Below, in pieces: positions 636-15,864 of a DNA stretch of 64,000 nucleotides. Made by a program: the position numbers and the translations under genes. Numbering within the stretch: the stretch's first letter is position 1; each line of letters opens with the position of its first letter. Under the pieces are notes generated by a model, which saw only the letters and a list, made by a program, of their open reading frames with translations, had not been told where the DNA came from and ran no database searches. Origin of the DNA: Gammaproteobacteria bacterium (GTDB lineage: Bacteria > Pseudomonadota > Gammaproteobacteria > Eutrophobiales > Eutrophobiaceae); NCBI GenBank assembly GCA_004297165.1, contig SCUJ01000008.1, positions 434,001 through 498,000 of the forward strand, read 5' to 3'.

Positions 636-1586
636 CTATTCGAACAACCGGCCGCCCCACCCGTCCTCAACGCCGTAGGGCACGGAGATGCCGAAGGCGA
701 ATATTCCCCGGAGCTTGCGGTTCCTGGTCTTGAACATATCGGCCCAGGGCATGCTGTTCGGCGACTTGAAGTAGCTTTCCACGACCGTACCGTCCGGCAA
801 CGGGATCTTGTCGATGCCCCGGTGATTGAACACGTAGAGACCCCAGGTGATGCCCTTCTCCTCGTCGATCACCGGTGTGCGGCGGGGCCGGACATTATGC
901 ACGGTCTTCAGCGCATAAGGGACCTTGCCGTCGGGGCTTTTGCAGGCGCGGCTCGCGGGCAGGCCCGCCGCCGGCGGGACCATGCCGGGGATCTTGCCGC
1001 AGGTCGCGATACCGTTTTCCACCCGGTAGGCGTCGTCATCCCAGGGGATCTGGCTCGCGTCCAGCGTATCGAGCGCCGCAAAATAAATTTCGACCACACG
1101 CAGCATGTCCGCGCGCGGCATGCGCTCTTCCGGAGGCAGGATTTCGTCGAACCCGGGCGGCGGCGATTTCAACGTGGCGAGGTTCCGCTCCTCGTTCACG
1201 TCGCGCACGACAATCGACTCCGCCTCGGTGATACGTCGGTTCACCACCTTGAGCCGCACCGAGAGCAGCACCGGCTTGGCGTGTTCCCTGGCGACGCCGG
1301 TCCACACCACCTGCCCCGTGTGCACATCGGCGACATAAAACTTGAAATCCCCGAGCCCGGACGCCGTGAACCAGAGCCCTTCAGTCGGCGGCAGCTTCGC
1401 CGTGTTCTCGGTGAAGATAAAACCTTCCGCCAACGGCGCCTTGGCGGCATCGTGCGCGACCATGGCGGCGAGATATTGATCGGCGATCCCCTCCAGACAG
1501 GCCCGGTCACAAGCGCCGGTGTCCTGGGCCTCTGCTGCGATAACCGCGGAGCTGACGAATACTGCGATGGCTGCTAATTTTTTCAT
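636..1586 (-). CDS. Secreted protein of unknown function (DUF8021/SnoaL-like)
   Basis: A 316-residue protein with a clear signal peptide (residues 1-20, ending near VIAAEAQ), so it is probably periplasmic or secreted. The part after the signal has a cysteine pair (CDRACLEG) and the pattern of a SnoaL-like fold: a helix with DQYLAAMVAHD, then strands with FTEN and GLWFTASG. It resembles the DUF8021 proteins known mainly from fungi and some bacteria. It lies 59 bp downstream of a carboxylesterase on the same strand, and the two may be co-transcribed. No catalytic role can be assigned; the family label is a recollection of pattern, not a search result. Confidence 0.7.
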   Translation of the reverse strand: MKKLAAIAVFVSSAVIAAEAQDTGACDRACLEGIADQYLAAMVAHDAAKAPLAEGFIFTENTAKLPPTEGLWFTASGLGDFKFYVADVHTGQVVWTGVAREHAKPVLLSVRLKVVNRRITEAESIVVRDVNEERNLATLKSPPPGFDEILPPEERMPRADMLRVVEIYFAALDTLDASQIPWDDDAYRVENGIATCGKIPGMVPPAAGLPASRACKSPDGKVPYALKTVHNVRPRRTPVIDEEKGITWGLYVFNHRGIDKIPLPDGTVVESYFKSPNSMPWADMFKTRNRKLRGIFAFGISVPYGVEDGWGGRLFE

Positions 1587-3298: not shown

Positions 3299-3811
3299 CT
3301 AAGCCTTCGATCGCAGCAATGTGAGGATGCCGCGCATGATTTCCAGGGGCGGCGGGGGGCAGCCCGGTATCTCGAAATCGACGGGAATGACATTCGCGAC
3401 CCGTCCGCAACTTGCATAACCCTCGCCGAAGATCCCGCCATCACAGCCGCAATCCCCCACCGCCACCACCAGCTTGGGCTCGGGCGTGGCCGCATAGACC
3501 CGGCGCAACGCCTCCGCCATGTGGCGCGAAACCGGCCCGGTGACCAGCAGCATGTCCGCGTGTCTGGGGCTCGCGACGAAGCGGATCCCCAGACCTTCGA
3601 GGTTGTAATAGGGATTGTTCACGGCGTGGATCTCCAGCTCGCAACCGTTGCAGGAGCCGGCATCGACCTGACGGATGGTCAGGGCATCGCCGAGGATGGC
3701 GAGCAGTTCCCGATGGATGCGCAGACTTTCCTCATGCGGCAGATCCGCGCGCGGCGGCGCGGGTTCGGTGCGGATCCCGGTTTGCGCAATCCGTTTGAGA
3801 ATCCGCAGCAT
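3299..3811 (-). CDS. hyfI: Ehr/Hyf complex small subunit (HyfI/NuoB-like, [4Fe-4S])
   Basis: A 170-residue subunit of the NuoB/HycG/HyfI family, last gene of the operon. The cluster-binding cysteines are all present: C54 and C57 in SCNGCELE, C121/C123 in GDCGCDGG and C151 in PGCPPPP, so it should carry the proximal [4Fe-4S] centre equivalent to N2 of complex I. The ATG at 3811 was chosen because it overlaps the stop codon of hyfG by one base and gives the family length; the longer open frame upstream runs through hyfG. In the cell it would sit on the cytoplasmic side against HyfG. Keeping the iron-sulfur ligands while HyfG has lost the NiFe ligands is typical of Ehr complexes. Confidence 0.9.
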   Translation of the reverse strand: MLRILKRIAQTGIRTEPAPPRADLPHEESLRIHRELLAILGDALTIRQVDAGSCNGCELEIHAVNNPYYNLEGLGIRFVASPRHADMLLVTGPVSRHMAEALRRVYAATPEPKLVVAVGDCGCDGGIFGEGYASCGRVANVIPVDFEIPGCPPPPLEIMRGILTLLRSKA

Positions 3812-5340
3812 CAGAGATCGTGTCCCGAGTAGCTGAGGTTGAAGGATTTGTTGATGAGCGGGAAGTCCGGGACGATGTTGCCGATCACGGCGTGTTCCAG
3901 CACCGGCCAGTTCTGCCACGAGGGATCGTGGCAGTGGCAGCGGCGGATCGCCCCGTCTTCGAGTTCGAGCGCGACCAGGACCTCCCCGCGCCAACCTTCC
4001 ATCCAGCCCAGGCCCCGGGTCTTGCCCCGCGGCAGTTGCGGTTCACGGCGCAAGGCGGAGTTCGGCAGGCTTCCCAGGATCTCCCGGATCAGACGCAGCG
4101 ATTCCTGCGTCTCTTCAAAACGCACGGTGACCCGCGCCGCGACATCGCCGTTGCGATGGGTCGCCATCCCGGGAGCCAGCCGATCATAGGGCGGCCAGGG
4201 ATGATCGCAACGCAGATCGATGGCGTGACCGCTGGCCCGCCCGGCGAGACCGGTGAGGCCGAGCCGGCCCGCGAGCGCGGGAGTGACCCGTCCCGCCGCA
4301 ATGAAACGATCCTGGAGTCCGGCGTGTCCCTCATAGATATCGCGCAGCGCCCGGACCTCCCGTTCCAGGCTGTCGCAGTGCCGTGCGAGCCGCGCCGCCG
4401 CGGGGCCGTCAAGGTCCGCGGCGACTCCGCCCGGCACGATACGGTCCATCAGCAGGCGATGGCCGAAGTCCTCGCCCAGACGGCGCAGCCATTCCTCCCT
4501 TAGCCTTGAAAACTGGGCGAGACCGAAGGCAAGCCCGGCGTCGTTGCCGAGCGCGCCGAGATCGCCCAGATGATTCGCGACGCGCTCCAGTTCGAGCAGC
4601 AGCGCCCGCAACCAGGCGGCGCGTTCCGGGATCGCGCAACCGCAGGCGGATTCGAGCGCCATGCAATACGCAAAGGCATAGGCCACCGTCGAATCCCCCG
4701 AGATCCGCCCGGCCAGCCGGTGCGCCTCAAGCGGCGGCAGTTGCGTGAAACGCCGCTCGATGCCTTTGTGGGTGTAGCCAAGCCGCTCCTCCAGCCGCAG
4801 GACCTTTTCCCCGACGACGGAGAAACGAAAATGCCCCGGCTCGATGATGCCCGCGTGCACCGGGCCGACGGGGATCTCATGCACCCCGTCGCCCGCGACC
4901 TTGACGAAGGGATAATCGATGGATTCGCCCGCCTCGCATGCACCGGCCCCGGGGTGCAGCGGCAGGTAGTCCGCCGGCCAGGCGCCGTGCCGGAACCAGG
5001 GCCGCTGATCCACACTACCTGAGGCGCAAATGCCGAGGAGATCCGCGGTCGCGCGCTGCATCCGGCCCGCAGCGGGAAATATTGAAGCGAGATCGGGATA
5101 GACCGGGGCAGATGCCGGCAGCGGCAGCTCCACCCAGATGAGGCCAGCGTGAATGACATAGGCCGCGGCCACGGACAATCCATCCGCCGCGGATCCCCAC
5201 AAGGCCACCAGCCTCCCGCCGGCGGCAACGACGCTGCGGGCGGCGGCGAGCCATTCCTCTCCGGTCACCTCCACATGCCAGATCGGCACGGGCGCCGGCA
5301 GCGGCGCGGGCGTGGATCGCAGGCCTTCGAGCAAGGTCAT
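3811..5340 (-). CDS. hyfG: Ehr complex large subunit: HyfG-like, lacking NiFe-binding cysteines
   Basis: A 509-residue protein with an N-terminal NuoC-like part (about 1-160) and a NuoD/hydrogenase-large-subunit part (about 160-509), the domain order of HyfG/HycE. In real group 4 hydrogenases the NiFe centre is held by an N-terminal RxCGxC motif and a C-terminal DPCxxC motif. Here the first reads RISGDS (S214, S217) and the second DPSWQN (472-477), so all four ligands are gone. It therefore cannot be an ordinary hydrogenase. Such proteins are known as Ehr (energy-converting hydrogenase related) subunits; the electron partner is unknown. The ATG at 5340 was chosen because it follows the hyfF stop by one base and gives the expected N-terminus. 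Confidence 0.88.
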   Translation of the reverse strand: MTLLEGLRSTPAPLPAPVPIWHVEVTGEEWLAAARSVVAAGGRLVALWGSAADGLSVAAAYVIHAGLIWVELPLPASAPVYPDLASIFPAAGRMQRATADLLGICASGSVDQRPWFRHGAWPADYLPLHPGAGACEAGESIDYPFVKVAGDGVHEIPVGPVHAGIIEPGHFRFSVVGEKVLRLEERLGYTHKGIERRFTQLPPLEAHRLAGRISGDSTVAYAFAYCMALESACGCAIPERAAWLRALLLELERVANHLGDLGALGNDAGLAFGLAQFSRLREEWLRRLGEDFGHRLLMDRIVPGGVAADLDGPAAARLARHCDSLEREVRALRDIYEGHAGLQDRFIAAGRVTPALAGRLGLTGLAGRASGHAIDLRCDHPWPPYDRLAPGMATHRNGDVAARVTVRFEETQESLRLIREILGSLPNSALRREPQLPRGKTRGLGWMEGWRGEVLVALELEDGAIRRCHCHDPSWQNWPVLEHAVIGNIVPDFPLINKSFNLSYSGHDL

Positions 5341-5341
5341 C

Positions 5342-6805
5342 TCAGCCCCCCACCATACCGGCCGCCTGCCGGTACCAGCCGTCCAGATAGGGCGGGATGT
5401 ACAAACCGAGCAGGAGGCCGAGCCCGATATGGATGAAGACCGGCAGCAGGGCGGGCGGATGCGCCAGCGGCCGGATCGTGGCATCGCCGAAGACCATGGA
5501 CTGGACCCGGCTGAAAACGGCGGCGAAGGCCACGCCGAGGGCGAGCAACAGAAGCGGCGTCGCCCAGGGTTGTTCGCGCATGGCGGTGGTGAGGATCAGG
5601 AACTCGCTCGCGAAGACCCCGAAGGGCGGCATGCCGACGATGGCGAGCGCGCCCAGCATCATGCCCCAACCGATCGTGGGACTGACCTTGATCAGTCCCT
5701 TGATCTCCTCCATGAGCTGGGTCCCGGCGGTCTGCGCGGCATGGCCGACGGTGAAAAAGATCGCGGACTTTATGAGCGAATGCACGGTCATGTGCAGCAG
5801 GCCCGCGAAGGTCGCGAGCGGGCCGCCCATGCCGAAGGCAAAGGTGATGAGACCCATGTGCTCGATCGAGGAGTAGGCGAACATCCGTTTGATGTCCCGC
5901 TGCCGGGACAGAAAGAAGGCCGCCAGCACCACCGAGAACAGACCGAAGCCCATCATCAGATTCCCCGCGAGAGGCGATTCCAGCGCGCCGTCGGTCAGGA
6001 CCTTGAAGCGCAGCACGGCATAGAGCGCGATATTGAGCAGCAGTCCGGAGAGCACCGCCGAGACCGGGGTCGGGCCCTCGGCATGGGCATCCGGGAGCCA
6101 GTTGTGCATCGGCGCGAGGCCGATCTTGGTGCCGTAACCGATGAACAGAAAGGCAAACGCCAGGGTGATGATGTTGGGATCGAGGCGATCCTTCACCGCC
6201 TCGAGATTGGTCCACAGCAGGGCGTCATCGCCGCCCACCTCGATCACCTTTTCCGCCGCCATATATAAAAGGATGATGCCGAACAGGGCCTGGGCGATGC
6301 CGACGCCGCAGAGGATGAAATATTTCCAGGCCGCCTCCAGGCTCGCGGCGGTCCGGTAGACGCTGACCAGCAGGACCGTGGCGAGCGTCGCCGCCTCCAT
6401 CGCGACCCACATGATCCCGATATTGTTGGTCGTGAGCGCGATCAGCATGGTGCAATTGAACAACTGATACATGCTGTGATAAAGCCGGAGCCTGCGCGGC
6501 GTCATCTTGCCGTGGTCCTGTTCGATGCGCATATAAGGCCGGGAGAAGATCGCCGTGGTCAAACCGACGAAGGCGGTGAGCGTGACCAGAAATACGTTGA
6601 GCGGATCGATGAAGAATTCCCTGTGCCAGCCGAACACGGGCCCCTGGGAGATGACCTCGGCGGTCAGGACGCAGGCCGCTATGAAGGTGGCCAGACTGAA
6701 GCCCACGTTCAGATCCCGGGCGAAATCCCGGTGTCCGGTCCAGGCCAGGACCAGGCTGCCGAGCAGGGGGATGAACAACACGGCGTGCAAGGCTTCCAAG
6801 ATCAA
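5342..6805 (-). CDS. hyfF: Ehr/Hyf complex antiporter-like membrane subunit F
   Basis: A 487-residue membrane protein of the NuoL/M/N (Mrp antiporter) family, closest in pattern to HyfF. It has many hydrophobic helices and the family blocks MWVAMEAATLATVLLV, TKIGLAPMHNWLPDAH and SSIEHMGLITFAFG, including the lysine and glutamate residues used for ion translocation. It probably pumps protons or sodium ions. The start is a TTG at 6805 that overlaps the hyfE stop as TTGA, which suggests translational coupling; no ATG gives a fuller N-terminus. It sits between hyfE and hyfG in the operon. Confidence 0.9.
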   Translation of the reverse strand: MILEALHAVLFIPLLGSLVLAWTGHRDFARDLNVGFSLATFIAACVLTAEVISQGPVFGWHREFFIDPLNVFLVTLTAFVGLTTAIFSRPYMRIEQDHGKMTPRRLRLYHSMYQLFNCTMLIALTTNNIGIMWVAMEAATLATVLLVSVYRTAASLEAAWKYFILCGVGIAQALFGIILLYMAAEKVIEVGGDDALLWTNLEAVKDRLDPNIITLAFAFLFIGYGTKIGLAPMHNWLPDAHAEGPTPVSAVLSGLLLNIALYAVLRFKVLTDGALESPLAGNLMMGFGLFSVVLAAFFLSRQRDIKRMFAYSSIEHMGLITFAFGMGGPLATFAGLLHMTVHSLIKSAIFFTVGHAAQTAGTQLMEEIKGLIKVSPTIGWGMMLGALAIVGMPPFGVFASEFLILTTAMREQPWATPLLLLALGVAFAAVFSRVQSMVFGDATIRPLAHPPALLPVFIHIGLGLLLGLYIPPYLDGWYRQAAGMVGG

Positions 6806-7461
6806 TCCTCCTTCAGCCGCTCGAGGTGGCGGATATCGAGACTCTCGAACTGTTCGCGGATGTGGAACATGAACACGCCGAGGATGAGCACGCCGACCAG
6901 CACATCCAGAGCGATGCCGAGTTCCACCACCATCGGCATGCCGTTGGTCGAGGCCGTCGCGGCGAAAAACAAGCCGTTCTCCAGCGACAGGAAACCGATG
7001 ACCTGCGGCACGGCCTTCGACCGCGTGATCATCATCATGAGCGACAAGAGCACGCAGGCCAGCGCGATCCCGAGCGTGCCGCGGGCGATGGAGGTCGACA
7101 ACTTGGCGATGGGCAGGGCCAGATCGAAGGCGACGATCACCAGCACGATGCCGATGATCATCAGGGTCGGGATGTTGATGAGCGTCTCCACGTCCCAGCG
7201 CACGTTGAGGCGGTCGATGATGCGATGCAGCAGCAGCGGGATGAGGATCACCTTGAGCGCGAACGTGAGGCCCGCCGAAAGATAGAGATGCTCCTGTCCG
7301 GTCGCATGGGCGACGATCGCCGTCGTGGCCACCAGGGTGATCCCCTGGAGGGTGAACAGATGGATCAGCGACAGGATCCGCCGCTGCGAGATCATGGCGA
7401 ACGAGAGCATCAACAGCAGCGCCGCGAGGAAATCGATCAACTGGATGCTGAGTCCGCTCAT
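6802..7461 (-). CDS. hyfE: Ehr/Hyf complex membrane subunit E
   Basis: A 219-residue membrane protein matching HyfE of hydrogenase 4. It has about six hydrophobic segments, and the C-terminal half resembles NuoK (FLSLENGLFFAATAS, then VLVGVLILGVFMFHIRE). Its role in known complexes is structural and in ion translocation within the membrane arm. The ATG at 7461 lies one base after the hyfC stop, and its own stop overlaps the hyfF start. The length is the family norm. The presence of a separate hyfE, which formate hydrogenlyase 1 lacks, places the operon with Hyf/Ehr-type clusters rather than Hyc. Confidence 0.88.
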   Translation of the reverse strand: MSGLSIQLIDFLAALLLMLSFAMISQRRILSLIHLFTLQGITLVATTAIVAHATGQEHLYLSAGLTFALKVILIPLLLHRIIDRLNVRWDVETLINIPTLMIIGIVLVIVAFDLALPIAKLSTSIARGTLGIALACVLLSLMMMITRSKAVPQVIGFLSLENGLFFAATASTNGMPMVVELGIALDVLVGVLILGVFMFHIREQFESLDIRHLERLKED

Positions 7462-7462
7462 G

Positions 7463-8410
7463 CTAATGTCCCTGCAGGTTGTTGACCAGCATCCCGATTA
7501 CGGCCAGCAGAAAGGCCGTGGCGAGGAACTCCGGGACCCGGAAGATGCGCAGTTTGGCGCTGATCGTCTCCAGCACGGCCAGCAGGAACCCGCCGATCGC
7601 GAGCTTCAGGATCAACACGGGCAGGGCGTATAAAACCGCGAACGGCGATTGTCCCTCCGACACCCCCCACGGAAAGAACAGCGCGAGCCCGATCCCGGAA
7701 TAGGCGAACAGTTTGAGGCTTGCGGCCCATTCGATGAGCGCGAGATGGCGGCCGGAATACTCCAGGATCAGCGCCTCATGGATCATGGTCAGCTCGAGAT
7801 GCGTCGCCGGATTATCCACGGGTATTCTGGCGTTCTCGGCCAGCGCCACCAGGGTGAAGGCCACGCCCGCGAACATCACGCTGGTGTAGATCGCCGGCCC
7901 CTGATCCGCGAGACGTTCGACGATGGTAGTGAGCGAGGTGGAGCCCGCGATCTGCGACACCGAAAACAGCACCATGAGCAGAGCAGGTTCCGCAAGAAAA
8001 CCGACCAGCATCTCGCGGCGCGCGCCCAGCGTCCCGAAGGCCGTGCCGATGTCCATCGCCGCCAGCGAGATGAACAACCGGCCCAGGGCAAAAAGTCCGA
8101 CCAGGGCGATGGCGTCAGCCGCCGGGGCGAGCGGCAGATCGGTGGAAAGCGTCGGTACGATGGCGCAGGCAAGCGTCATGCAACCGAGCAGGATGTAGGG
8201 CGCGCCACGAAACAGCGGCGAGGCGTGTTCGGCCAGGACCGATTCCTTGTGAAAGAGCTTGTGCAGCAGGCGGTAAGGCTGCAACAGACTGGGCGCCGAG
8301 CGGTTCTGCAGCCGCGCGCGCCACTGATTCACCCAGCCGGTCAGGAGCGGCGCGAGCAGCAGGGCGATGACGATATCCAGAAACTGGGCGCTTAAACTGG
8401 CGGCGCTCAT
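7463..8410 (-). CDS. hyfC: Ehr/Hyf complex membrane subunit C (NuoH-like)
   Basis: A 315-residue membrane protein of the NuoH/HyfC family, which links the soluble arm to the ion-pumping subunits. Recognisable blocks are GWVNQWRARLQNRSAPSLLQ near the N-terminus, FAGVAFTLVALAENARIPVD and HLELTMIHEALILEYSG, containing the conserved acidic residues of the quinone-site/E-channel region. The ATG at 8410 overlaps the hyfB stop by 4 bp (ATGA) and yields the expected start MSAASLSAQ; the longer frame upstream is a shadow of hyfB. Genes for the ferredoxin-like subunits HyfA and HyfH and for HyfD are absent from the operon. Confidence 0.9.
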   Translation of the reverse strand: MSAASLSAQFLDIVIALLLAPLLTGWVNQWRARLQNRSAPSLLQPYRLLHKLFHKESVLAEHASPLFRGAPYILLGCMTLACAIVPTLSTDLPLAPAADAIALVGLFALGRLFISLAAMDIGTAFGTLGARREMLVGFLAEPALLMVLFSVSQIAGSTSLTTIVERLADQGPAIYTSVMFAGVAFTLVALAENARIPVDNPATHLELTMIHEALILEYSGRHLALIEWAASLKLFAYSGIGLALFFPWGVSEGQSPFAVLYALPVLILKLAIGGFLLAVLETISAKLRIFRVPEFLATAFLLAVIGMLVNNLQGH

Positions 8411-10437
8411 CTTCGCACCAGCAGCAACACGGCTATCAGGGTCAGGAAGCTGTACAGGAGATACACCGTGATCCGTCCCTGTTGCAAATGTCCGAGCAGG
8501 CGGGCCAGGCGTTCGACCCCGGCGGCGGCGGGCAGGTACAACCAGCGCCAGAAATAATCGCCCACCTGGACCCGGTAGACCGGCTCGCTGTCGAAGGGGG
8601 AAGGCAACTGCCGGTCCAGATCGAAGAAGGGTTCGAAGATCTGGCGGATCGGTTGACCGAAGCCTTCGGCGGTGTCCTGCATGCGCGCGGTCTGCCAGGG
8701 GAACCCGCAATCCCAGGGGGCGGAGCGGCGGACCCTGCCATGATAGATGCCGCGCACAATAATAAAGACCAGCGCGCAACAGATGGCGATACCGAGGAGA
8801 AAGATCGCCGGCCCGTAACTGGACCGATCCAGGGCGACCGGCACCAGCAGCCAGCCGTGATCCGCGACTGTCGCGCCCAGACCCGCGCCGGTCAGATATT
8901 GAGTGACGGGATCGATGACCTGGATGAACTGGATCGGCAGGAGCCCGAGGGCCAGGCTGCCGGTTACGAGCCAAGCCATACCGATCCGTTCCCAGGCGCC
9001 GGCGTCGTGCGCCAGCGCCAACCGCTCCTCCCGAGGTCGACCCAGGAAGATGATGCCGAAAAATTTGACCATGGTGTATCCGGCAAGCGCGGCGACCAGG
9101 GCTACCAGCGCCGCCACCACCGGGATCAACATATTAAGAAAGTAACTGGGCAAACCGGTGGCGAACAGAAACCCCTGCAACAAAAGCCATTCGGAGACGA
9201 ACCCGCTGAGCGGCGGCAGGCCGGCGCTGGCGATCACCCCCACCAGGCAGACCCACGCCACCCAGGGCATGTAACGCATCAGGCCGCCGAGCTTGCCGAG
9301 GCTGCGCTCGCTGGTCGCGTGCAGCACTGCCCCGGTGCCCAAAAACAGGAGGCTCTTGAACAGGGCATGGCCCGCGGTGTGATAGAGCGCGGCCGTGAGC
9401 GCAAGAGCCGCCATCGGCAGCATGCCGTAGGACGAAAACAGAACGGCCAGCCCGATGGCCGTGAACAGGATGCCGATGTTCTCGATCGACGAATAGGCGA
9501 GCAGGCGTTTCATGTCCACCTGCGCGGCGGCGAAGATGACCCCGAAGAGCGCGGTGACCACGCCCACGGCGATGAGCAGCACGCCCCACCACCAGAGCCT
9601 GAGGTCCAGGAGATCGAAACACACCCGCAGAATCCCGTAGATCGCCGTCTTCAGCATCACCCCGCTCAGCAGGGCCGAGACCGGCGAAGGCGCGGCCGGA
9701 TGCGCCTCCGGCAGCCACACATGCAACGGGAGAAGACCGGCCTTGGCGCCAAATCCGCAGAGGGCCAGCAGGAAGGCGATCGATGCCCAGAACGGCGAGA
9801 GCTGCTGGGCGCGCATGTTTTCGAAACTGTAGTCCCCGGTATTGGCCTGCAAGACGCCAAAACAGAGCAGGATGCCGATCGCGCCGATGTGCGCGATCAG
9901 TAAATAAAGAAAACCGGCGTTGCGGATCTCGGGGATGCGGTGGTTGGTGGTGACCAGCAGAAAGGAGGCCAGCGCCATCGTCTCCCACATCACCATGAAG
10001 GCATAGGCGTCATCCGCCAGCACCACCAGCGTCATCGCGGCGAGAAAGACGTGATATTCCAGACAAAGCAGTCCCGGCGGCGTGCCCTCGCCCTTGCGGA
10101 AGTAACCCGCGGCGAAGGCCGATACGCCCGCCGCGACGCCGCCTATCACCATCAGGAAAAAGGCCGAGAGACTGTCGAGGCGGAAGTGGAACGGCAATTG
10201 CGGCAGTCCGATCGGCAATACCGCCGTCTCGGGCGCAGCCTGAGTGGCGATGAGGGCGATACCGAGGAGAACGACGCCGAACACCCCGCCGGCCGGAAAC
10301 AGCACCTTGGCCACCAGGGCGAGGCGGCGTAAGGCAAAAACTCCAATCAAACCGATCGACAACCAGGCGCTGGCGACCAGCAGGACCCAATCCAGGTACA
10401 ACCACTCTCCGGGGTGAAACAGAACGCTGGAGTTCAT
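8407..10437 (-). CDS. hyfB: Ehr/Hyf complex antiporter-like membrane subunit B (NuoL-like)
   Basis: A 676-residue polytopic membrane protein of the NuoL/HyfB family, first gene of the six-gene operon. It shows the proton-conducting antiporter core (METMALASFLLVTTNHR, FGAKAGLLPLHVWLPEAHP, YSSIENIGILFTAIGLAV) and a long C-terminal extension with further hydrophobic segments, as in HyfB. It should form one of the ion channels of the membrane arm, with HyfF the second. The CO2-uptake system DabAB also uses a NuoL-like subunit, but there is no DabA here and the full HyfC/E/G/I set follows. The start ATG at 10437 is the first in frame; the Shine-Dalgarno sequence (AGGGAT) is weak. Confidence 0.9.
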   Translation of the reverse strand: MNSSVLFHPGEWLYLDWVLLVASAWLSIGLIGVFALRRLALVAKVLFPAGGVFGVVLLGIALIATQAAPETAVLPIGLPQLPFHFRLDSLSAFFLMVIGGVAAGVSAFAAGYFRKGEGTPPGLLCLEYHVFLAAMTLVVLADDAYAFMVMWETMALASFLLVTTNHRIPEIRNAGFLYLLIAHIGAIGILLCFGVLQANTGDYSFENMRAQQLSPFWASIAFLLALCGFGAKAGLLPLHVWLPEAHPAAPSPVSALLSGVMLKTAIYGILRVCFDLLDLRLWWWGVLLIAVGVVTALFGVIFAAAQVDMKRLLAYSSIENIGILFTAIGLAVLFSSYGMLPMAALALTAALYHTAGHALFKSLLFLGTGAVLHATSERSLGKLGGLMRYMPWVAWVCLVGVIASAGLPPLSGFVSEWLLLQGFLFATGLPSYFLNMLIPVVAALVALVAALAGYTMVKFFGIIFLGRPREERLALAHDAGAWERIGMAWLVTGSLALGLLPIQFIQVIDPVTQYLTGAGLGATVADHGWLLVPVALDRSSYGPAIFLLGIAICCALVFIIVRGIYHGRVRRSAPWDCGFPWQTARMQDTAEGFGQPIRQIFEPFFDLDRQLPSPFDSEPVYRVQVGDYFWRWLYLPAAAGVERLARLLGHLQQGRITVYLLYSFLTLIAVLLLVRR

Positions 10438-10866: not shown

Positions 10867-12603
10867 GTGAACAAGAGTCTTTTTAAATCAGGCCTCACGG
10901 CGCTTGCCGTCGCGATTGGCCTCTCCGGCAACGCGATCGCCGCCGACCAGGACGTGGTGACGGTCTTGAATCCCATCGTCGAGAGCAAGATGGCGGAGCG
11001 CCTCCCGCTCTCGCCCCGCCTGGATACCCTGTCCGGCAAAACGCTTTATCTGGTCGACATCAACTGGGGCGGACCGCAGGCGGCCTGGAGCGTCTATGAA
11101 CAGATGGAGGCCTGGATGGCGGAGCACATGGCCGACGTGAAGGTCGTGAGAAAGCGCCTCGCCGCCTCCTACATGGTCGACGACCCGGCGTTGTGGGCGG
11201 AGATTGCGGAAAAGGGAGACGCCGCGCTCGTCGGCATCTCGGGTTGAGACGGCTGCACATCGGCCGTGGGCCGATTCGCCAAGACCCTGGAACTGAAAGG
11301 CGTCCCGACCGTCGGCGCCGCCGCGGAGACCATGGTCAACTACGGGATCGATTATGACTTCAAGTACACCAACGGGATGCCCATCCGTTATGTGGCCTTC
11401 CCCTTCCCCGTCGCGGGACAGCCCCCCGAGGTGCACAAGCGTTATGTCGAAGGCGAGGATCGCCTGAGTCACAAACCGATGATGACCGCCATCGTCGATG
11501 CGCTGACCAAACCGCTCACCGAGAACGAAACCTTCAAGGGCGTGCCGCCGGAGGCCCGGCCTGAGCCGCGCCTGCTCCCGCCGGATACCGAGGCCAACCT
11601 GCAACGGTTATTCAAGGACAAGGACTGGACGGATTACAACTCCATCATCCTCCCCACCGAGGAACGGGTGGCGGCGATGCTGAAAGGCACCAGCCACAAA
11701 CCGGATGAGGTGGTCGCCACGCTCTCCTGGCCCGGCGGCGATCGCAAGCTCACCGTGGAGAAGGCGGCCATCGCGGCGGTCATGGCCGGGGCGCGGCCGG
11801 AGTTCATGCCGCTCATCCTGGCCGTCGCCACCCGCGTGCCCTTCGGCAATTCGACTTCATCCATGGCCAACATGATCGTGGTCAACGGTCCCATCCGCAA
11901 GGAGCTCGGGATGAATTCCGGCACGAACGCGATGGGCCCGCACAACGAGGCCAACGCGGTGATTGGCCGGGTCTTCACCCTGCTCTCGAAGACCGTGGGC
12001 AACCTGCACAGCGGCAAGACCACCTTCAGCACGCTCGGCAGCAACCTGCAATACAACAACCTGACCATTGCCGAGAACGAGGAATTGCTGCCGGAAGGCT
12101 GGCTGCCCCTGCACGTGCAGATGGGCTTCAAGCCCGAGGACAGCGTGGTGACCATCGGCATCGGCTGGACCTACATCTCGAGTGTTGGCGAGGTGCAGAT
12201 CGGTTATCCGCCGCAGAACCTGATGCGCGATTACATGCACGCGCTTTCATCCTCCGGCTCGGCAGCGACCATCGTCGTGGATCCGACCGTGGCGAAGCTC
12301 CTGAAGGATGTGCATGGCTTCAACAAGAAGGAGGACCTCAGTGCCTGGCTCTCCGGCAATGTGGAGAAAACAGTCGCCTCCTACTGGGGCAACGGCGTGG
12401 TCTCTACCGTCAATTCCGCCATGGCCCTGCAGGGGCTGGAGCCCCTTGCCACCTGGCTGAAGGCCCCGCCGGACACCTTGATCAAACCCTTCAACAATCC
12501 GAAGAGCATCCAGATCCTAGCTGTGGGCGGTAACATCCAGACCACCTGGTTCGTTACCGATTTCCGTCTGGGTCGTGGCGTGAAGGTGGATGACTGGAGA
12601 TAA
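10867..12603 (+). CDS. UGSC-family exported selenoprotein (UGA at 11245 read as selenocysteine)
   Basis: Two open frames in the same frame, 10867-11247 and onward from 11248, are separated only by the TGA at 11245-11247. Read through, they give one protein of about 578 residues with a signal peptide (GNAIAADQ near residue 26) and selenocysteine at position 127 in the motif GISG-U-DGC, with C130 three residues on. This fits the UGSC (seleno)protein family known from marine metagenome selenoproteome studies, although here the motif reads U-D-G-C. A hairpin with loop GUG begins 11 nt after the UGA (see 11259-11275). The start is GTG with AAGAGGGG eight bases upstream. The U-x-x-C pair suggests a thiol/selenol redox role in the periplasm; the substrate is unknown. 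A selenocysteine rhodanese follows. Confidence 0.85.
11259..11275 (+). promoter_or_regulatory. bSECIS-like hairpin after the UGSC UGA codon
   Basis: ATCGGCC at 11259-11265 and GGCCGAT at 11269-11275 form a perfect 7-bp stem closed by the triloop GTG at 11266-11268. Bacterial SECIS elements have a short stem, a small apical loop with a guanosine in its first two positions, and roughly 16-37 nt between the UGA and the loop. Here the first loop base is G and the distance from the UGA is 18 nt, so all three conditions are met. Confidence 0.75.
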
Positions 12604-12612
12604 ATGCTAATT

Positions 12613-12647
12613 GGGTCGGAGTAATTTTGGATAAATCACTCCGACCC
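12613..12647. repeat. Inverted repeat between the two selenoprotein genes
   Basis: GGGTCGGAGT at 12613-12622 pairs perfectly with ACTCCGACCC at 12638-12647, leaving a 15-base loop. There is no run of T after the stem, so it is not a classical intrinsic terminator; it may protect mRNA ends or attenuate expression of the second gene. Its form is that of the REP-like elements scattered in many gammaproteobacteria. Confidence 0.6.
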
Positions 12648-12670
12648 CTTAAATTACAGGATCTGGACTT

Positions 12671-13123
12671 ATGAAAATACAAAAACTGATCGGCTGCACC
12701 TTGTTGCTACTGCTGTCTCTCGTCAATCTTTCAGCCCTCGCGGCAAACGAGGAACTGCCAAACCCCGAGATCCTGCGCATCACCCCGCAGGAGTTGAAGG
12801 GCCTGCTCGATGCCGGCACGCCGCCGGTCATCGTCGATACCCGAGACAGCCTGAGCTACAGCACCGGGCACATCCCCGGCGCCATCAACATCTATTACGA
12901 CCCCTCGGGCGATCCCATGAACCGCGAGATGATGCTGATCGCCCTGCCGATGGACAAACTGGTGGTGCTCTATTGTCCTTGAGTGGACGATGAAGAGAGC
13001 TCCAGTATGGCGCTCGAAATGATTCAACTGGGATACGACAAAAATATGGTCAAGGCCCTGAGTGGCGGCTCCCTGATGTGGGAGGACCTGGAATATCCGC
13101 TGGAGGAAACCAAGACCGAGTAA
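12671..13123 (+). CDS. Exported rhodanese-like selenoprotein (UGA at 12980 read as selenocysteine)
   Basis: The frame from 12671 reaches a TGA at 12980-12982, then continues without interruption to TAA at 13121-13123. Read through, it is a 150-residue single-domain rhodanese with a signal peptide (cleavage near LSALA-ANEE), the block PPVIVDTRDSLSYSTGHIPGAINI and the active-site stretch VVLYCP-U. The residues after the UGA (EMIQLGYDKNMVKALSGGS) are the normal C-terminal part of a rhodanese, which shows that the UGA is not a true end. Selenocysteine is residue 104, two after the presumed catalytic C102. Rhodaneses of this CPU type are known among bacterial selenoproteins. With the upstream UGSC protein it forms a pair of periplasmic selenoproteins. 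Confidence 0.85.
12997..13015 (+). promoter_or_regulatory. bSECIS-like hairpin after the rhodanese UGA codon
   Basis: GAGC (12997-13000) pairs with GCTC (13012-13015) and CCA (13002-13004) with TGG (13008-13010), with a single U/C mismatch between the two helices and the triloop GTA at 13005-13007. The loop starts with G and lies 22 nt after the UGA, inside the range for bacterial SECIS elements. The stem is weaker than that of the first selenoprotein. Confidence 0.6.
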
Positions 13124-14737: not shown

Positions 14738-14871
14738 TCGTGATATGAGCCGCCCTGGAGGCGTCTCCGGGAATTGGGAGCTACCAGAGTGAATCCCGCG
14801 CATGGTCTGGTGTGGTGGATACTTATTCAGTGTTTCCCTAGAATTGAATCAGTATCGCAGTGGAGCCCCAC

Positions 14872-15415: not shown

Positions 15416-15613
15416 ATGAAAGTACAGATTATCGAGAAAGAAGTTCAGTCCCTGAATAAAAAGGAATTGGCTGAATTTCGCAATTGGTTTCAGGAATTCG
15501 ATTCCGAGGCATGGGACGCTCAAATTGAACAGGATGCCCGCTCGGGCAAATTTAATCACATTGCGCAGGAAGCCCTGGATGAACATAAGCGGGGCGAGAG
15601 CAAGGCTTTGTGA
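15416..15613 (+). CDS. Antitoxin of a ParE/RelE-type pair
   Basis: A 65-residue acidic, helical protein (EKEVQSLNKKELAEFRNWF, then DSEAWDAQIEQDARSGKF) of the kind encoded ahead of RelE/ParE-superfamily toxins. The final part with KFNHIAQEALDEHKRG is the usual toxin-binding tail. Its stop overlaps a GTG start of the toxin frame as GTGA. The toxin is interrupted, so the antitoxin may now act alone. Regulation is probably from the R2 promoter repeat upstream. Confidence 0.7.
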   Translation: MKVQIIEKEVQSLNKKELAEFRNWFQEFDSEAWDAQIEQDARSGKFNHIAQEALDEHKRGESKAL

Positions 15614-15864
15614 AACATCATGCCTCCCATAAATTTTGGGAGTCGTACGAAAAACTGCCTGCCTCCATCCGCACTCGTGCGGATAAAAATTTCCAACTCC
15701 TCAAAAATAATCCAACCCATCCTTCACTTCATCTTAAATCCATTGGCCCATACCGTTCAGTACGTATCGGCCCGTGATACCGTGCGTTGGGGATCGAAGT
15801 TAAAGATGGAATTCTATGGTTTTGGGTTGGCTCACATGCTGAATACGATCAGATACTGGGTTAA
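15610..15864 (+). pseudogene. ParE/RelE-superfamily toxin interrupted by an in-frame TGA
   Basis: From the GTG at 15610 the frame gives a typical toxin start (HASHKFWESYEKLPASI, then NFQLLKNNPTHPSLHLK), hits TGA at 15775-15777, and continues with the typical end (YRALGIEVKDG and WVGSHAEYDQIL) to TAA at 15862. Intact relatives have an arginine or similar residue at the TGA position, between VRIGP and YRAL. The stop would remove about a third of the protein, including catalytic-surface residues, so the gene is probably inactive. There is no SECIS-like hairpin after this TGA, so it is not treated as a selenoprotein. Confidence 0.7.

Follow-up and report, generated by a model that had tools for sequence, protein, structure and literature searches.

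Selenoproteins of the UGSC type (PF24696/NF041046) hold selenocysteine (Sec) in a UxxC site, and their fusion to a C-terminal domain, UGSC/Unknown_1, was described together with a proposed thioredoxin-like fold for UGSC (Zhang and Gladyshev, 2008; PMC2398784). Another described family, form 3 of the rhodanese-like selenoproteins (CxU; NF041203, rhodanese_LYCAU), consists of a single rhodanese domain with an LYCxU motif. UGSC selenoproteins, the C-terminal fusion, and CxU rhodanese selenoproteins are each already in the literature (PMC2398784, PMC9312934, PMC13188914). Several selenoproteins in one neighbourhood are also found in the Tso and SAO operons (Haft and co-workers, cited in PMC13188914), the former including the rhodanese-like selenoprotein TsoB; the passages of that review consulted here do not list UGSC as a Tso or SAO component. 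A UxxC site is also present in selenoprotein B of glycine and D-proline reductase, GrdB/PrdB (PF07355, TIGR01917, TIGR04483).

Here we describe a UGSC-type gene (gene 1) directly followed by a CxU rhodanese gene (gene 2) in a gammaproteobacterial genome of 3.53 Mb (13 contigs, 98.95% complete). The window, meaning the whole stretch of 64,000 nucleotides that was analysed, is G000:C2:434001-498000, where G, C and L numbers denote genomes, contigs and loci, respectively. Gene 1 shares the UxxC site and the fusion to a C-terminal domain with the published UGSC proteins, but its motif is UDGC instead of UGSC, it is predicted to be exported, it is one of 16 paralogues in one genome, it is paired with a Sec rhodanese, and its predicted fold does not look thioredoxin-like. 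Gene 2 shares the single rhodanese domain and the LYCxU motif with form 3, yet it adjoins a UGSC gene, and it reached only 34 bits against 805 for the TsoB model. Because gene 1 matched the equivalog model NF041046 with 35.5 bits (curated cut-off 125) and gene 2 matched NF041203 with 55.1 bits (curated cut-off 115), both products are divergent members, and gene 2 is a non-member of NF041203 by the curated test. A search with NF041203 across the class returned generic rhodaneses only, none of them above its cut-off. We found no mention in the literature consulted of the UGSC-rhodanese pairing, the paralogue expansion, or the link to GrdB/PrdB, all of which appear to be new; recent work may hold an earlier mention.

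Two adjacent genes with in-frame TGA codons

The features of the locus are the following.

10867..12603, + strand: gene 1, UGSC-type selenoprotein with homologues, predicted exported; 578 aa, Sec127, GTG start
10867..10941, + strand: predicted signal peptide of gene 1, residues 1-25, cleavage between AIA and AD placed by eye
10960..11445, + strand: UGSC domain, residues 32-193, predicted alternating alpha/beta
11245..11247, + strand: TGA codon of Sec127; codon of the partner Cys130 at 11254-11256
11259..11275, + strand: SECIS-like hairpin of gene 1, ATCGGCC-GTG-GGCCGAT, 18 nt between TGA and loop, with covariation
11572..12600, + strand: C-terminal domain, residues 236-578, fusion of the 'Unknown_1' type, without Pfam or PDB sequence relative
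12613..12647, + strand: perfect intergenic 10-bp palindrome GGGTCGGAGT ... ACTCCGACCC, without a T tail
12671..13123, + strand: gene 2, single-domain rhodanese selenoprotein, predicted exported; 150 aa, Cys102-Pro-Sec104
12671..12742, + strand: predicted signal peptide of gene 2, residues 1-24, cleavage between ALA and AN placed by eye
12974-12976, + strand: Cys102, the usual rhodanese Cys, kept in gene 2
12980..12982, + strand: TGA codon of Sec104, aligned with Cys in L080, L092 and L093
12997..13015, + strand: SECIS-like hairpin of gene 2, GAGC-T-CCA-GTA-TGG-C-GCTC, 22 nt from TGA to loop, kept in L083

With TGA read as U, each gene contains exactly one U, in the motifs UDGC (U127/C130) and LYCPU. 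The first-pass annotation of this DNA had claimed that both TGA codons are flanked on both sides by family sequence. The Pfam matches bear this out: UGSC (PF24696) covers residues 32-193 of gene 1 with 56.2 bits (cut-off 25) and spans U127, and Rhodanese (PF00581) covers residues 38-138 of gene 2 with 56.8 bits (cut-off 22.2) and spans U104. Likewise, both N-termini look by eye like signal peptides of the Sec type, signal peptides having been claimed for both proteins; residues 1-30 of the gene 1 model have a pLDDT of 53-60. A gap of 67 bp separates the two genes. Given this short distance and a palindrome that lacks a T tail, co-transcription of gene 1 and gene 2 is likely. The palindrome is unique among the loci compared.

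The machinery for Sec insertion, which the first-pass annotation had proposed to look for, is complete in the genome: selA (527 bits), selB (363 bits), selD (363 bits), and tRNA-Sec (70.8 bits) were all found, and selD itself contains one TGA. On contig C2 (L030), selB, selA, and tRNA-Sec lie together in a cluster that also contains two UGSC-type genes, one of them between selB and selA, and a CxxC thioredoxin-reductase-like gene adjoins selB.

Bacterial SECIS elements were assessed via alignment. The hairpins were found as they had been predicted, both with a triloop starting with G at the claimed distances past the TGA codons. Codon shuffling of single genes gave p=0.037 for gene 1 and 0.07 for gene 2; since this test is weak for many members of the family (median p 0.18), it is covariation that carries the case for SECIS elements. 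In clade A (16 sequences), 92.7% of the cells of the stem are paired and double changes occur at three pairs, and in clade B (16 sequences) 97.9% are paired with double changes at two pairs. The covariation score of each clade was reached by 0 of 500 shuffles, and sliding the partner destroyed it. In the rhodanese hairpin of L083, a U-C mismatch is replaced by a G-C pair. Rfam at its gathering thresholds gave no match within the 64-kb window.

Among 11 homologous GTDB contigs, every copy of gene 1 aligning over the site has TGA at the position of U127, which is also kept in second and third copies on those contigs that are only 30% identical. Cys takes this position in Neorhizobium, Variovorax, and two halophilic archaea, and TGA is found in a homologue on an Acidovorax plasmid. 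Across all 44 aligned homologues, each of which matches PF24696, Cys or Sec is shared in two columns only, those of U127 and C130. The rhodanese partners on L083 and L084 retain the TGA, and a Cys form, LYCPC, adjoins another UGSC paralogue in three genomes (L080, L092, L093). In G002:C128 (L084) the orthologous pair is damaged: the UGSC gene contains an assembly gap of Ns, and the rhodanese carries a tandem repeat inside the gene at the contig end.

A residue other than Cys or Sec at the TGA positions had been named beforehand as evidence against the selenoprotein reading. Close and mid-range homologues have only TGA or Cys at the tested positions, but other residues do occur, in distant paralogues from other phyla. 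We inspected 57 targeted sites from the Acidobacteriota/Myxococcota MAGs, deliberately including stop-free matches: TGA stood at 41, a non-thiol residue at 15 (Ser 7, Thr 2, Leu 2, Asn 2, Ala 1, Gly 1), and Cys at none, while one site fell in an alignment gap. Most of the non-thiol copies have also lost the second Cys. Judging from these residues, part of the UGSC family would have to work without a selenol, or would have lost activity. For gene 1 and gene 2, we consider it close to certain from the sequence evidence that both encode selenoproteins.

Elsewhere in the window, a small RelE/ParE-like toxin-type reading frame (15610-15864, + strand) is broken by an in-frame TGA, as seen by eye; an HTH antitoxin-like gene stands beside it at 14860, and in this context a broken gene is more probable than a selenoprotein. 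Directly upstream of gene 1, on the opposite strand, lies a membrane-bound hydrogenase-4/complex I-like operon (3299-10437, - strand), and such a set also adjoins the gene 1 orthologue in G002 (L084).

Paralogues and gene neighbourhoods

The main oddity is the 16-fold paralogy rather than the gene pair. PF24696 matches 16 places in the source genome, each with exactly one TGA, and in all 16 paralogues this TGA falls on the aligned U127 site and is followed by xxC. A match to gene 1 was present in 4 of 53 genomes of the order, and a class-wide sample of 369 genomes held the UGSC domain in 5. Seven MAGs of unstated quality from Acidobacteriota or Myxococcota, which were reached through loci, contained 12, 27, 15, 17, 28, 16, and 23 UGSC-domain matches, most with one TGA. 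In the tree, the paralogues of the source genome pair with orthologues from genomes of the neighbouring genus and family; the copies are thus old and not assembly duplicates. In L164, a stand-alone Sec UGSC domain (G422:C100, 17100-18712) lies beside a CxxC thioredoxin-reductase-like gene, and belongs to a run of four UGSC-type genes, two of which have lost the Sec site.

Whether the UGSC and rhodanese genes stay together in other genomes had been raised by the first-pass annotation, and the answer is divided. The pair recurs with a CxU rhodanese in G002 (L084) and G019 (L083), two more UGSC pairings with CxC rhodaneses were found in other phyla, and three of the eight rhodanese genes of the source genome adjoin one of the 16 UGSC genes (simple binomial P ~5e-5). 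The pairing is not obligatory, however, as most UGSC paralogues lack a rhodanese neighbour; most have no thioredoxin gene beside them either. L080, L092, and L093 share a row of UGSC, Cys-rhodanese, a small YVCEFQ protein, and a WCPPC TlpA-like thioredoxin. UGSC paralogues free of a signal peptide (L073, L164) have a CxxC thioredoxin-reductase-like flavoprotein next door, and in Variovorax (L106) such a gene is one gene away from the Cys form of UGSC. The position of UGSC genes beside rhodaneses, TlpA-type thioredoxin, or CxxC thioredoxin-reductase-like flavoproteins suggests an electron supply. Of the periplasmic pathway that had been supposed for the pair, either of redox or of selenium or sulfur transfer, the redox version thereby gains from the TlpA and thioredoxin-reductase-like neighbours, whereas nothing found speaks in favour of selenium transfer. 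Furthermore, Cys homologues lie within catabolic clusters (CoA-transferases, CoA-ester lyase, carboxylate transporters), and some Sec copies are near Mo hydroxylase or aldehyde-ferredoxin-oxidoreductase-like genes, as judged partly by eye.

Two further families, both predicted to be exported, recur near UGSC genes. A small DUF4352-like protein adjoins them in at least nine loci, with about 50% identity across genomes within one UGSC clade, and a family starting with CDRxCL(E/K)G lies close to them in several genomes; three members of the latter that were checked had no Pfam match.

DUF4352-like neighbour: L030 9303-9842; L072 9594-10178; L071 9565-10068; L165, L168, L169, L173, L174, L176
CDRxCL(E/K)G family: window 636-1586 (- strand); L074 9663-10781; L083 195-1217 and 1254-2354; L023 5698-6573; L173 7199-8122

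Predicted fold and proposed remote relation to GrdB/PrdB

The AlphaFold2 model of gene 1 has a mean pLDDT of 89.7. Its UGSC domain consists of alternating strands and helices of the Rossmann type, with Sec at the N-terminal end of the helix that follows strand three. A fold search with the whole model matched only the N-terminal domain, to CheY, PurE, and lumazine-synthase-like structures with Z-scores of 8-9.5, a common Rossmann arrangement. From the matches listed, the domain is predicted to be flavodoxin/CheY-like, in apparent disagreement with the thioredoxin-like fold proposed in 2008.

The C-terminal residues of gene 1, about 340 in number and passed over in the first-pass annotation, gave no Pfam family and no confident fold match, and neither the whole protein nor this domain alone had a meaningful match in PDB sequence searches. 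The best fold match, class I fumarate hydratase, was too weak (Z 5.2) and was rejected. The likeness to Unknown_1 is one of fusion type. In haloarchaea, the C-terminal region is a separate gene adjoining a stand-alone UGSC gene, so the two domains probably work together.

Among NCBIfam models run against the 44 UGSC members, GrdF matched 11, GrdB 6, GrdH 2, and PrdB 5; these matches are weak, the best having an E-value of 1.3e-3, and fall on the stretch that holds Sec. For a profile comparison, hhalign was used to align the UGSC family with four PrdB/GrdB-like sequences of the same class, of which three carry TGA and the fourth Cys. This four-sequence alignment gave a probability of 86-92 and P-values of 5e-6 to 7e-7, in a register placing Sec on Sec and Cys on Cys, with the following Glu and Gly-(Ile/Val)-Pro-Thr at the same spacing. 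The C-terminal domain did not match the same alignment in hhalign, and PF07355 had no match anywhere in the source genome. Judging from these profiles, we place UGSC in the GrdB/PrdB superfamily as a remote member that lies outside PF07355. Gene 1 differs from GrdB/PrdB in its predicted export, in the domain fused to it, and in lacking a family-level match; moreover, no pyruvoyl partner of the GrdE/PrdA type was noticed among the neighbours listed. In Clostridia, the GrdB/PrdB operons carry thioredoxin-type reductants, to which the UGSC neighbourhoods can be likened.

Proposed reaction and competing readings

Starting from the Sec use, export signals, paralogy, GrdB/PrdB-like active site, and neighbour genes seen in the sequences, we propose that the UGSC proteins could be exported, Sec-dependent two-domain reductases of small substrates that are re-reduced via a thiol relay including the CxU rhodanese, a proposal on which our own judgement is evenly balanced. 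Since UGSC is distantly homologous to the selenol subunits GrdB/PrdB, reductive cleavage is the most likely reaction. The selenolate of Sec127 would cleave a small organic substrate reductively, leaving a Sec127-Cys130 selenenylsulfide. Substrate binding would fall to the C-terminal domain, and each of the many paralogues would act on a substrate of its own. Outside the membrane, the selenenylsulfide would be re-reduced by a thiol relay of TlpA-type thioredoxin and CxU/CxC rhodanese, in which the Cys102-Pro-Sec104 rhodanese of the window would meet gene 1 as its relay partner, relaying electrons, or carrying sulfur if the reaction releases it. For cytoplasmic paralogues, the CxxC thioredoxin-reductase-like flavoprotein encoded next door may take over re-reduction. 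Against a reductase stand the remoteness of the GrdB/PrdB relation (single-protein E-values of ~1e-3, a four-sequence comparison alignment, and no PF07355 match), the many paralogues without a rhodanese or thioredoxin next door, and the non-thiol residue (Ser, Thr, Asn, Leu, Ala, or Gly) that some paralogues in other phyla have in place of Sec.

The pair could instead serve general periplasmic thiol/selenol redox repair, the kind of role supposed for most UxxC selenoproteins. UGSC would then be an antioxidant or disulfide oxidoreductase for proteins or peroxides, and the rhodanese would be its thiol partner. The UxxC motif, the predicted export, a TlpA thioredoxin as neighbour, and the Trx-like fold assumed for UGSC in the literature (PMC2398784) would suit this role. 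We nevertheless consider it unlikely, because the model shows a Rossmann/CheY-like alternating alpha/beta domain and the sequences relate to GrdB/PrdB, and because 16 to 28 paralogues and the catabolic neighbourhoods of Cys homologues suit substrate-specific enzymes better. With its single Sec/Cys pair, its GrdB/PrdB-like site, its paralogues, its catabolic company, and its reductants, the family is better explained as a selenol reductase with specific substrates than as a general antioxidant. We give a similarly small chance to sulfur or selenium transfer, in which the CxU rhodanese would exchange sulfane sulfur or selenium with Sec127 and the pair would handle persulfides, polysulfide, thiosulfate, or selenite. 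The rhodanese fold with its usual Cys102, the recurrence of rhodaneses beside UGSC genes, and the isolate label Zod of several related MAGs, which we take to mean the sulfide-rich Zodletone spring, are compatible with such an exchange; yet the pair itself comes without a sulfur-transfer or selenium-metabolism gene, the TlpA and TrxR-like neighbours point to a flow of electrons rather than sulfur, and most UGSC genes have no rhodanese neighbour.

It is more doubtful still that the two genes are functionally unrelated, having become neighbours by chance in a single lineage that passed the arrangement on. In favour of this, no rhodanese match lies on the contig of the G019 orthologue (L081), where only ~0.85 kb downstream is available, and most paralogues have no partner; pairing in different UGSC clades (window/L084, L083, L080/L092/L093, L072, L177/L179) and the binomial value for the source genome argue the other way. 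TGA normally means stop, and the codons might therefore be ordinary stops or the genes might be decaying. This reading has a negligible chance, since tens of homologues from three phyla share a single TGA at the same alignment position, to which are added the Cys replacements, the SECIS covariation, and the full Sec machinery.

In its broadest form, the reductase proposal would describe a new superfamily of exported GrdB/PrdB-like selenol reductases, expanded in the genomes of uncultured Gammaproteobacteria, Acidobacteriota, and Myxococcota to tens of substrate-specific paralogues each and equipped with a periplasmic selenium/thiol relay of its own (CxU rhodanese and TlpA); we put this forward tentatively, as somewhat less probable than not. 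The expansion would be comparable in kind to those of reductive dehalogenases. As standard annotation truncates the genes at TGA, the UGSC family is easily overlooked in databases. If the proposal is true, a single family of selenoproteins has grown to 16 copies here and 12-28 UGSC-domain matches elsewhere, an expansion expected of a catabolic enzyme class. UGSC selenoproteins are abundant in aquatic metagenomes, and their function, a question since 2008, is now testable through the link to GrdB/PrdB and the neighbouring reductants.
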